Shown in pieces: positions 35,886-38,683 of a stretch of DNA of 64,000 nucleotides. This stretch comes from an uncultured Campylobacterales bacterium (GTDB lineage Bacteria; Campylobacterota; Campylobacteria; Campylobacterales; Arcobacteraceae), in the NCBI GenBank assembly GCA_947494995.1, contig CANLWY010000006.1, positions 124,001 through 188,000 of the forward strand. Reading direction: 5' to 3'. The notes under the pieces are model-generated. The model did not search any database, had not been told where the DNA came from, and worked only from the letters and a program-made list of their open reading frames with translations. Position 1 is the first letter of the stretch, and each line of letters begins with the position of its first letter. The position numbers were made by a program, and so were the translations under genes.

Positions 35886-36683
35886 TTGAAAGTTGGTGTG
35901 TTTGATTCTGGGCTTGGTGGTTTAACAATTGTTGATGCAATTTCAAAATCTTTCCAAGGAGCACAGGTTTTTTATATTGCAGATACTTTATTTGCACCAT
36001 ATGGAGAAAAAAGTAGAGAACAGATTTTAAAACATAGTTTAGATGTAGCAAACTATTTAATTAAAACACATGAAATAGATGCATTGGTTGTTGCTTGTAA
36101 TACGGCTACTTCAGCAGCTATTAAAACTTTACGAGCATCTTTTCCAAGGCTTATAGTAATTGGAACTGAACCTGGTATAAAGCCAGCTATGCAAATAACA
36201 TCTTCAAAAAATATTGGAGTTTTAGCAACTCCTGCCACACTAAGTGGTGAAAAATATCAACTTTTATTAAATGACCTTTCAAAAGAACATGATGTAAAAG
36301 TGCATGAATCAGCTTGTGCAGGATTGGTAAATCAAATTGAAAATGGAAGAATAGAAGATAAGCAAACCTTTAAAATGCTTCAAAAATGGTTAGAACCAAT
36401 GAAACTTAATAGTGTAGATACTATAGTTTTAGGATGTACGCATTATCCTTTAATTTCGAAAATTATAAAAGATATTATGGGAGCTGAGACAATGTTAATT
36501 GAAACAGGTAGTGCAATTGCAAAAAGATTGAAAATTTTAAGTTCACAAAATGGACATACAAAACAAGGCAGTTTAGAAATAACTGTTTTTTATACAGGTG
36601 AAATAAAAAAAGATATGATAAATATGATTTTAAACAGATGGACTGATGGCGGAAAAATTGAAGTAAGGGATACCTATGAGTGA
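35886..36683 (+). CDS. murI: Glutamate racemase
   Basis: A 265-residue racemase making D-glutamate for peptidoglycan. F-D-S-G-L-G-G-L is at the start. The two catalytic cysteines lie in V-V-A-C-N-T-A-T near residue 70 and V-L-G-C-T-H-Y-P-L near 180. The start is TTG at 35886, with AAAGG six bases upstream; no in-frame ATG fits the conserved N-terminus. It overlaps dnaX by 8 bp. Confidence 0.95.
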   Translation: MKVGVFDSGLGGLTIVDAISKSFQGAQVFYIADTLFAPYGEKSREQILKHSLDVANYLIKTHEIDALVVACNTATSAAIKTLRASFPRLIVIGTEPGIKPAMQITSSKNIGVLATPATLSGEKYQLLLNDLSKEHDVKVHESACAGLVNQIENGRIEDKQTFKMLQKWLEPMKLNSVDTIVLGCTHYPLISKIIKDIMGAETMLIETGSAIAKRLKILSSQNGHTKQGSLEITVFYTGEIKKDMINMILNRWTDGGKIEVRDTYE

Positions 36684-38427
36684 GAATCAAGCGTTAGAGA
36701 AAAAAGTATTAGCATTAAAATATAGACCAAAAAGATTTGAAGATTTAGTAGGACAAAGTACGATTTCTCAAACCCTTTCATTAGCGTTAGATTCAAATAG
36801 ATTATCTCATGCATATCTTTTTAGTGGACTTCGAGGAAGTGGTAAAACAAGTACAGCGAGGATTATGGCAAAAGCTTTATTATGTTCTGATGGTCCAACA
36901 TCAAGACCTTGTGAAACTTGTGAAAACTGTCAAAGTGCAAATACAAATAGACATCTAGATATTATAGAAATGGATGCTGCTTCAAACAGAGGTATTGATG
37001 ATATTAAAGATTTAATAGAACATACAAAATATAAACCAAGCTCTGCACGTTTTAAAGTATTTATTATCGATGAAGTCCATATGCTTACTCCACAAGCTTT
37101 TAATGCTTTACTTAAAACACTTGAAGAACCTCCAGGTTTTGTAAAGTTTATTTTAGCTACAACAGATCCATTAAAGCTTCCAGCTACAATATTAAGTAGA
37201 ACACAACATTTTAGATTTAATAAAATTGCAAAACAAGATGTTTTACATCATCTTTCTCATATTTTAAATGAAGAGAATATAGATTTTGAAACACCAGCAC
37301 TTGAAATTTTAACAAGAAGTGGTCAAGGAAGTCTAAGAGATACTTTGACTTTACTTGATCAAGCAATAATCTTTTCAAAAGGAAAAGTTACAACTACCTC
37401 AGTTGTTGAAATGTTAGGTTTAATTGAACCAAAGCTTATGGATAATCTTTTTGATATAATTTTAAAAAAAGAAGACTTTGTTGAAATTGTTAAAGAGTTA
37501 GAAAATTATGAAATATCACAAGTTTGTGATGAAATGACAATTTATCTAAAACAGAAAATGCTTGAAAAAGATGTAAAGTTTGACTTACTTCTTTTTGATA
37601 GATTTTTTAGAATATTAAGTGATGCAAAACATTTACTTTCAATGAATTCTGATGGCGGTTTTGTTCTTATTTTAACTTTATCAAAAATGATAGAAGCAAC
37701 AAATTTAAAATCAATTGAAGATATTATAAATCAAGTTGAACAAGTAGAAGTTAAGCCTGTTATGAAGGAAGCAATTTCAATACAAAAAGTAATTGACCAT
37801 GCAAAAAATGATGTAAATCATGCATATGATGATGAAATTGTAGTTTTAAATAAAGAGTTTCACCAAAATAAGAAGCAAGTAAATGAAGCACTTGAACAAG
37901 CAGTTGAAGTTGAACATGATACGACATTATCAATTGATAGTGTAAATGCAATTCCTACTGTTGAACCTATAGAGATAGTTGAACCCTCAGTTGAAGAAAC
38001 CTTATCAAACCCTTTTTCAACTCCATTTGATGAAACACCTTTTGAACAAGAAATTATACCAAGTGAAATAATAAAAGAAGAACCTAAAGAAGTAATAGCT
38101 GAAGTTAATACAGAAGTTATTGAAGAAATTGTAGAAGAGCCTATTGAAGAAGTCGAAGAGAAACTTAATCCACATAAAGAACTATATAAAAAACTTACAG
38201 CAAAAGTTTATGAAAGAGATGATGAATTAGGAGAGCTTTTTGAAAAAAACTTTATCTTTAATAGGTTTGAAAATAATAAACTAGAGATAGTCTCTTATGC
38301 GCAAGATGAAGAGAGAAAATTCCTTTTTAAATACTTTGGAGTTATAAAAACATTTATTTATGATGTATTTGGAAGTGACATTGAGTTTGATTTTATAAAG
38401 GAAGATCCCTCCACAAAGGGCAAGTAA
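36676..38427 (+). CDS. dnaX: DNA polymerase III gamma/tau subunit, frame interrupted near the 3' end
   Basis: A 583-residue clamp-loader ATPase as read. It has Y-R-P-K-R-F-E-D-L near the start, Walker A L-R-G-S-G-K-T-S-T near residue 52, a zinc finger C-x8-C-x2-C-x2-C near 75, Walker B I-D-E-V-H-M-L near 130, and the Ser-Arg-Thr sensor. An acidic linker of about 120 residues follows, then a folded C-terminal region (F-E-K-N-F-I-F-N-R). The frame ends at TAA 38425-38427 after an unconvincing P-S-T-K-G-K tail. An open frame of 94 codons in the +1 phase continues from 38399 to 38683 and ends in a DnaX-like tail, so either the gene is frameshifted or the ribosome slips here. It overlaps murI by 8 bp. 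Confidence 0.92.
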   Translation: MSENQALEKKVLALKYRPKRFEDLVGQSTISQTLSLALDSNRLSHAYLFSGLRGSGKTSTARIMAKALLCSDGPTSRPCETCENCQSANTNRHLDIIEMDAASNRGIDDIKDLIEHTKYKPSSARFKVFIIDEVHMLTPQAFNALLKTLEEPPGFVKFILATTDPLKLPATILSRTQHFRFNKIAKQDVLHHLSHILNEENIDFETPALEILTRSGQGSLRDTLTLLDQAIIFSKGKVTTTSVVEMLGLIEPKLMDNLFDIILKKEDFVEIVKELENYEISQVCDEMTIYLKQKMLEKDVKFDLLLFDRFFRILSDAKHLLSMNSDGGFVLILTLSKMIEATNLKSIEDIINQVEQVEVKPVMKEAISIQKVIDHAKNDVNHAYDDEIVVLNKEFHQNKKQVNEALEQAVEVEHDTTLSIDSVNAIPTVEPIEIVEPSVEETLSNPFSTPFDETPFEQEIIPSEIIKEEPKEVIAEVNTEVIEEIVEEPIEEVEEKLNPHKELYKKLTAKVYERDDELGELFEKNFIFNRFENNKLEIVSYAQDEERKFLFKYFGVIKTFIYDVFGSDIEFDFIKEDPSTKGK

Positions 38428-38683
38428 AGTAGAGAGTACTTTTGCAAATCCAATAGAGGAAAAGAGTAAAGAGAGAGAAGATATTGAATCTTCTGAATCA
38501 GTAGGTTCTATGATAGAAGATGTTGAAGTAGGTTCAGGTTGTGTTGCAGATATGCAAAAAAGTTCTAATCCTAAACCTTCTCAAAAAGAGTTAGATATGA
38601 ATGATATTTTAAACTCTGCGCAAATGAGTGCAGCTAAAGAGATATTACATGTTAAGAAAATAACAGTTAAAACAAAGACTTAG
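38399..38683 (+). other. dnaX: Out-of-frame continuation of dnaX (+1 frame)
   Basis: After the in-frame TAA at 38396, the +1 phase is open for 94 codons to TAG at 38681-38683. It has no good start of its own: the first ATG is at 38510 without a ribosome site. The translation is acidic and Ser/Glu-rich, then ends in A-K-E-I-L-H-V-K-K-I-T-V-K-T-K-T, similar in style to the C-terminal tail I recall for DnaX in related Campylobacterota. Codon use matches the neighbouring genes. Shift candidates in the overlap are CCC at 38407-38409 (CCC-T is a known +1-prone codon context), AAA at 38415-38417 and GGG at 38418-38420. Confidence 0.6.

Follow-up and report, generated by a model that had tools for sequence, protein, structure and literature searches.

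The stretch analysed here, which we call the window, comprises 64,000 nucleotides of contig 6 (CANLWY010000006.1, positions 124,001 to 188,000) of the genome of an uncultured member of the Arcobacteraceae, and it contains a dnaX gene whose protein-coding sequence is divided between two overlapping reading frames. The genome (G000) falls into genus group g1, which appears to be Halarcobacter; genus group g2, which recurs below, appears to be Aliarcobacter. From comparison with related genomes, it is very probable that in this Halarcobacter a programmed +1 ribosomal frameshift, stimulated by a Shine-Dalgarno (SD)-like sequence, yields a short and a long form of DnaX. The 0 frame of dnaX occupies 36676 to 38427 (583 amino acids) and is closed by a TAA at 38425–38427, while the +1 frame is open from 38399 to a TAG at 38681–38683 and overlaps the 0 frame by 29 nt. 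Across the junction the 0-frame codons are ATA AAG GAA GAT CCC TCC ACA AAG GGC AAG TAA; the +1-frame translation runs RKIPPQRASK...KKITVKTKT and has no ATG, GTG or TTG for 34 codons past the shift point. The window gene product scores 692 bits against the NCBIfam equivalog NF006280 (cut-off 572) and also matches DNAX_ATPase_lid PF22608. The features of the locus are as follows.

36676..38427, + strand: dnaX 0 frame, predicted short (gamma-like) product ending ...FIKEDPSTKGK (NF006280)
38164..38403, + strand: last folded domain (helix-helix-strand-strand-helix-helix-strand), present in both predicted products (AlphaFold2, model residues 1–80)
38398..38403, + strand: Shine-Dalgarno-like AAGGAA, in frame as AAG GAA (anti-SD pairing; AAG GAN defines the element)
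38404..38406, + strand: spacer GAT, the 3 nt between the SD-like stretch and the shift codon (3 nt in the element as defined)
38407..38412, + strand: proposed shift site CCC_UCC, with P-site CCC and 0-frame A-site UCC; +1 codons CCU CCA
38425..38427, + strand: 0-frame stop TAA, closing the predicted short form
38411..38683, + strand: +1 continuation PQRASK...KKITVKTKT, then TAG; linker and conserved tail of the predicted 668-aa long (tau-like) product
38597..38647, + strand: two short C-terminal helices in the tail, the proposed polymerase-alpha-binding part (model residues 145–149 and 152–161)

The original prediction, made from the letters of this stretch, had placed the end of the dnaX frame at 38427 and had described a +1 phase open from 38399 to 38683, lacking its own start and ending in K-I-T-V-K-T-K-T. 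Both descriptions are correct, and there is no early start codon. Its remark that a shift would lie near the very end of the gene was mistaken, the tail being about 90 residues long. The length of the open +1 run carries little weight by itself, as the six frames of the window hold 9181 runs from stop to stop (real genes counted) and 86 of them reach at least 94 codons. The run stands above chance because the tail that it encodes is homologous to, and matches, the C-terminus of the continuous DnaX proteins of relatives, and because the break recurs within the genus.

A dnaX gene was found in all 16 genomes of our genus sample (the window's own included), and in nine of them (G000, G003, G005, G006, G008, G009, G010, G011 and G013) the frame is broken at the homologous place. 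All nine broken genes read AAG GAR GAY NCC TCC, reach a 0-frame stop four to six codons on (NCC counted) and carry the DnaX tail in the +1 frame. When the pattern AAGGARNNNNCCTCC was run over the 16 genomes it matched dnaX in every one of the nine broken genes and in none of the seven continuous ones, with six other matches; a reversed control pattern gave seven matches over the same genomes. Beyond the tail's presence, its mode of evolution points to translation. Of the 36 possible pairs among the nine broken genes, eight were computed, and in seven the ratio dN/dS of the tail beyond the 0-frame stop is 0.07–0.32 (dS is saturated in the eighth), whereas the same bases taken in the wrong frame gave the opposite pattern, an excess of non-synonymous change, in the three pairs tried. 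These data strongly suggest that the tail belongs to a translated DnaX and that purifying selection acts on it in the +1 frame.

A picture such as this one often comes from a single-base frame break, and the original prediction named a mutation and an indel error in the assembly as alternatives. The chance that an assembly error or a recent inactivation of dnaX by an indel explains the locus is negligible: the same break and element recur in nine genomes of the genus, a break of the same kind occurs in three genomes of two other genus groups, the tail is under purifying selection, and dnaX, which encodes the clamp loader, is expected to be essential. The tail could instead be a separate peptide made by re-initiation past the 0-frame stop, since the overlapping frames resemble coupled genes and an ATG (that of SMIED) lies inside the tail. 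In the nine Halarcobacter genes, however, the first possible start codon comes 24–34 codons past the shift point and at least 19 codons past the 0-frame stop, and in the other three genomes with a break 14–37 and 13–34 codons past these two points. Moreover, the same tail is fused to DnaX in continuous relatives, and the PPQ junction, which precedes any start codon, is open in all nine, so that re-initiation is extremely unlikely. Selection on the tail, the late start and the recurrence of the break together argue strongly against assembly error and decay, and they support a +1 shift between 38399 and 38427, the interval originally proposed.

The seven remaining genomes of the genus have a continuous dnaX, so the comparison with relatives suggested in the original prediction turned out in both ways, with the same break in nine genomes (its own among them) and one uninterrupted frame in seven. 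The latter does not refute a shift in the window gene, since in all seven the linker in question holds A_AAA_AAG and a −1 stop follows one codon later. These continuous genes (L006, L008 and L010–L014) have an Escherichia coli-like −1 site, and a −1 frameshift within the genus is likely.

In order to follow the junction sequence more widely we defined an element, an in-frame AAG GAN NNN NCC in the linker (an SD-like AAGGAR, three nucleotides and NCC), and scored it in 104 Arcobacteraceae genomes, of which 98 have a dnaX match, one locus each, and six have none at 1e-60. The element is present in 60 of the 98 loci, and in one further locus (G084) that has a −1 site as well. It spans eight genus groups, with nine loci in g1, 30 of 31 in g2 (the remaining g2 locus is masked by N), nine in g19, seven in g8, two in g12 and one each in g5, g9 and g16. 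After removal of two genes with runs of N (G035, also left out of the tree described below, and G055), the 96 remaining family genes contain 61 elements, against a mean of 0.96 and a maximum of 6 in 200 synonymous shuffles. In 48 of the 60 loci the 0 frame runs on for 68–109 codons and encodes the long form (in G063 the long frame reaches the contig end), and the +1 frame meets a stop after two to four codons (47 loci) or seven (one locus). The other 12, of the 98 loci in all, have the swapped layout seen in the window, in which the long form requires the shift; they are the nine Halarcobacter genes, G091 (g19), and G058 and G062 (g8), the last three thus belonging to two further genus groups.

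The codons of the element are uncommon ones. The P-site codon is CCC in 30 loci, GCC in 28 and UCC in two (usage 5.2, 6.9 and 2.3 %, respectively), and the lysine codon is AAG (usage 12 %); AAG and NCC belong to the element by definition. The codon after NCC, which the definition leaves free, is UCC in 31 loci, ACC in 17, CNN in 11 and AGG in one. On average 1.3 % (at most 5.5 %) of the other in-frame windows of a gene pair with the anti-SD sequence equally well or better. None of the 60 element loci has an in-frame UGA as the A-site codon. One dnaX (G084, L066) holds both AAA AAG GAT GAA ACC and A_AAA_AAG with a −1 stop, and is possibly an intermediate between the two kinds of site; in the counts below it stands with the −1 group.

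What the sequences establish is where the junction lies, the constraint on its letters and the selection acting on the tail; the way in which the ribosome would shift is our proposal. On this mechanism, some ribosomes would read CCC UCC ACA AAG GGC AAG UAA and stop, giving a short form of 583 amino acids, and other ribosomes would slip one base forward at CCC_U, continue with CCA CAA AGG... and give a long form of 668 amino acids. The AAGGAA would pair with the anti-SD sequence of the elongating ribosome, as in prfB; a 16S 3' end with the anti-SD, GGATCACCTCCTT, was found in the genome. With NCC in the P site read by a tRNA with U34 and the rare UCC in the A site, the frame would slide forward. 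The tRNA genes of the genome are consistent with this, as proline is served only by UGG, alanine only by UGC and UCN serine only by UGA; tRNAs with U34 only for CCC, GCC and UCC fit near-cognate pairing in the P site as a cause of +1 shifting. A covariance-model search returned 43 tRNA genes (32 distinct sequences), and an independent pattern of T-arm plus CCA gave 46 matches, namely the 43 known genes, the transfer-messenger RNA and two stretches without an ARAGORN tRNA; a tRNA gene that lacks an encoded CCA and is missed by the covariance model would escape both searches. The set of tRNA genes (L115–L150, L254–L256) is a small one, and GGN-anticodon Pro, Ala and Ser tRNAs, Gly(GCC) and Arg(ACG) were not found in it.

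A −2 shift, or four-base decoding of CCCU, would lead into the same frame as a +1 shift, and −2 frameshifts have precedents. We consider both together to be very unlikely. The base before CC varies between C, G and U across the loci, a variation that four-base decoding of CCCU would leave unexplained; no tRNA with an odd anticodon is among the genes found, and the SD-like stretch 3 nt before the shift codon is the arrangement of the prfB +1 site.

To relate the two predicted products to known subunits we modelled the C-terminal part of the protein with AlphaFold2. Block-mean pLDDT is 86–95 over residues 1–80; the folded domain ends near residue 80 and the shift comes at 82–83, followed by a linker with pLDDT below 50 and a tail that contains two short helices. 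According to this model, the short form seems to end just past the last folded domain and to lose only the linker and the proposed polymerase-binding tail. The majority consensus of the tail is LNSxMLxKAKELFDIKKITVK, and Pfam gave no match for it. By analogy with E. coli, the short form would be a clamp-loader subunit of gamma type, unable to hold polymerase alpha, and the long form a tau-like subunit that holds it through the conserved C-terminal tail. In the accessible part of PMC11470591, the contact of E. coli tau with alpha is placed at residues 611 to at least 636, and removal of the last 25 residues is said to leave negligible binding, like that of gamma. Homology of the last folded domain to domain V of E. 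coli tau was not adopted as a reading; five PDB sequences matched the domain (best E 0.16), none of them tau. In fold comparisons the domain comes closest to SirA (Z 9.2) and to eukaryotic ribosomal proteins, which we read as a common arrangement.

Several observations weigh against a programmed +1 shift in these genes, or limit the case for it. The evidence is comparative throughout, drawn from sequences. The element was defined on the very genes in which it was counted, and the shuffles ignore relatedness among them. GCC in the P site re-pairs poorly on CCU or CCA, which leaves some members unexplained by a simple slip. The genome's own prfB (L251) is one continuous frame with no RF2 frameshift, and hence SD-driven +1 shifting is not shown elsewhere in this genome. 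A near +1 stop was rejected as stand-alone proof, given that 41–49 % of control codons have one within four codons; under synonymous recoding its P averages 0.57, and being so common it is a weak feature except by its consistency. No common downstream RNA structure emerged among 15 genomes folded without pseudoknots, in which only G058 and G005 had isolated low folding z-scores. Finally, the resemblance of the last domain to the E. coli tau fold is weak (Foldseek match 5fkv_E at rank 10, E 0.18), and in a second fold comparison E. coli tau was absent among the 50 matches listed.

Family members that lack the element mostly have another candidate site. Of the 36 N-free genes without it (G084 among them), 30 have A_AAA_AAG or a run of nine A at 60–135 codons from the end, and a −1 stop follows within about five codons; 300 synonymous shuffles of the same 36 genes gave a mean of 15.7 and a maximum of 22 such strict linker sites, whose definition was set after inspection of the site table. 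Six (G052, G053, G054, G067, G068 and G070) have neither kind of site. A looser candidate, in which A_AAA_AAR may stand at any place in the gene provided that a −1 stop is near, was dropped because it is unenriched (74 against 67.1, maximum 85). Altogether, a candidate recoding site of either kind is present in 90 of the 97 family loci scored.

These A-run sites in the same linker of sister lineages, and the use of transcriptional slippage by Thermus dnaX (in the accessible part of PMC1088944), raise the question of whether slippage by RNA polymerase produces other-frame mRNAs from the window gene too. We regard this as very unlikely. The longest run at the window junction is three (CCC, AAA and GGG), compared with nine A in Thermus, and what the element-bearing members share is AAGGAN-N3-NCC and not a homopolymer. 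A strict −1 or A-run site is present in one of the 48 continuous element-bearing genes, against 1.8 in shuffled genes. The last comparison also led us to reject active avoidance as the reason why the two kinds of site exclude one another; the exclusion stems from the amino-acid make-up of the linker, not from codon choice.

A quick tree was built from the first 360 residues (97 rows), and several of its forks are weakly supported. On it the four states need ten changes. The swapped label needs five by parsimony, and starred branches require at least three, whether gains or losses. We think it likely that a two-form DnaX is a standing need in the Campylobacterota while the way of decoding it is replaced over time: a −1 site, a +1 site that leaves the long form in frame and a +1 site that leaves the short form in frame would take one another's place at one position in the gene. 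The third kind is found in three separate regions of the Arcobacteraceae tree, and a Helicobacter possibly has it as well.

Two known systems share features with the window gene. In E. coli, dnaX has a programmed −1 frameshift at A_AAA_AAG with an SD-like stretch and a stem-loop, and in prfB, which encodes RF2, the +1 site consists of an SD, 3 nt and CUU_UGA. Like E. coli dnaX, the window gene would specify two nested clamp-loader subunits from the same gene with an SD-like stimulator; unlike it, the window gene would shift by +1, shows no shared stem-loop and has no in-frame A_AAA_AAG with a near −1 stop. The parallel with E. coli drawn in the original prediction therefore stands as regards two products, but fails as regards which of them needs the shift, since in E. 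coli it is the short form that the shift yields and here the long form. With prfB the window gene has in common the +1 direction and an SD-like hexamer that ends 3 nt short of the P-site codon; it differs in that the shift codon is NCC and in that no stop occupies the A site, which leaves no RF2 feedback. According to the accessible part of PMC11470591, E. coli gamma ends early in domain IV, whereas the window short form would lose linker and tail only.

Among other cases, two-ORF dnaX genes (Antonov et al. 2013, PMC3711429, accessible part) resemble the window gene in that tau needs recoding and gamma is the product of standard translation; that work describes 17 genes with −1 frameshifts at the DNA level, 12 with poly-A, whereas the window gene would shift +1 at AAGGAR-N3-NCC and 12 of the 98 family loci are two-frame. 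The words Arcobacter and Campylobacter are absent from its main text. Thermus thermophilus dnaX (PMC1088944, accessible part) likewise makes two products per gene; it needs nine A, and there is no such run at the window junction. The same shift site is described for cps of Listeria phage PSA (PMC5009743, accessible part), with a CCC_UCC hexamer, a +1 shift and a low-GC host in which CCC is rare, although this is a phage gene and no SD-like stimulator is mentioned in that part. The same part notes that the matching tRNA is missing at the yeast antizyme +1 site and gives the same set of dnaX recoding modes, namely −1 frameshifting, transcriptional slippage and two-ORF genes with −1.

Within the literature searched, dnaX recoding is known as −1 frameshifting or transcriptional slippage, and the +1 form is apparently new: no +1 dnaX frameshift and no Arcobacteraceae dnaX recoding appeared among the matches listed, in a search whose coverage excludes most subscription papers. 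The accessible part of PMC3711429 treats prfB as the best-known chromosomal +1 case in bacteria. If our interpretation is true, dnaX would be a second housekeeping gene with a +1 shift and, with a sense codon in the A site, would serve as a new model of +1 shifting driven by an SD. The 60 Arcobacteraceae loci, in two opposite layouts, would offer a natural experiment on shift efficiency. The case would also bear on the need of bacteria for a short DnaX, given that the short form seems to lack just the proposed polymerase-binding tail and that nearly all family loci have a candidate recoding site. Swapped dnaX genes are also easily mistaken for broken ones.

Outside the family we examined samples of loci in three sets, the second of which (52 loci) may overlap the other two. 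The element is absent from all 20 loci of other Campylobacterales families in the first set. The 52-locus set consists of seven Arcobacteraceae and 45 others, one of them incomplete (L185 ends before the C-terminus); among the 45, L187, L194, L208 and L209 have the element at 81–95 codons before the end and meet a +1 stop after three or four codons, and L215 has it elsewhere in the gene. In 60 further loci the element occurs in three (L294 and L263, with a +1 stop after five codons, and L286). The swapped layout is found in L219, from Helicobacter sp. 13S00401-1, and L286 is the same dnaX. This gene stops at ...DKDLPQSNLR, and its +1 frame is open for 144 codons after AAG GAC TTA CCC; its tail is similar to the ends of other Helicobacter-like DnaX proteins at no better than E 0.11. 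A +1 frameshift in this Helicobacter dnaX is possible, and we regard it as a lead.

Two minor observations were made in the same loci. L292 (G113), from another Campylobacterales family (code f11), is swapped in the −1 direction at an A run, AAA AAA AAA TAG, and its −1 frame encodes a DnaX-like tail ending KKVRIKSKV. L175, from a metagenome-assembled genome record titled Desulfosporosinus, has a dnaX of the Arcobacteraceae type, and the title of the record looks wrong.
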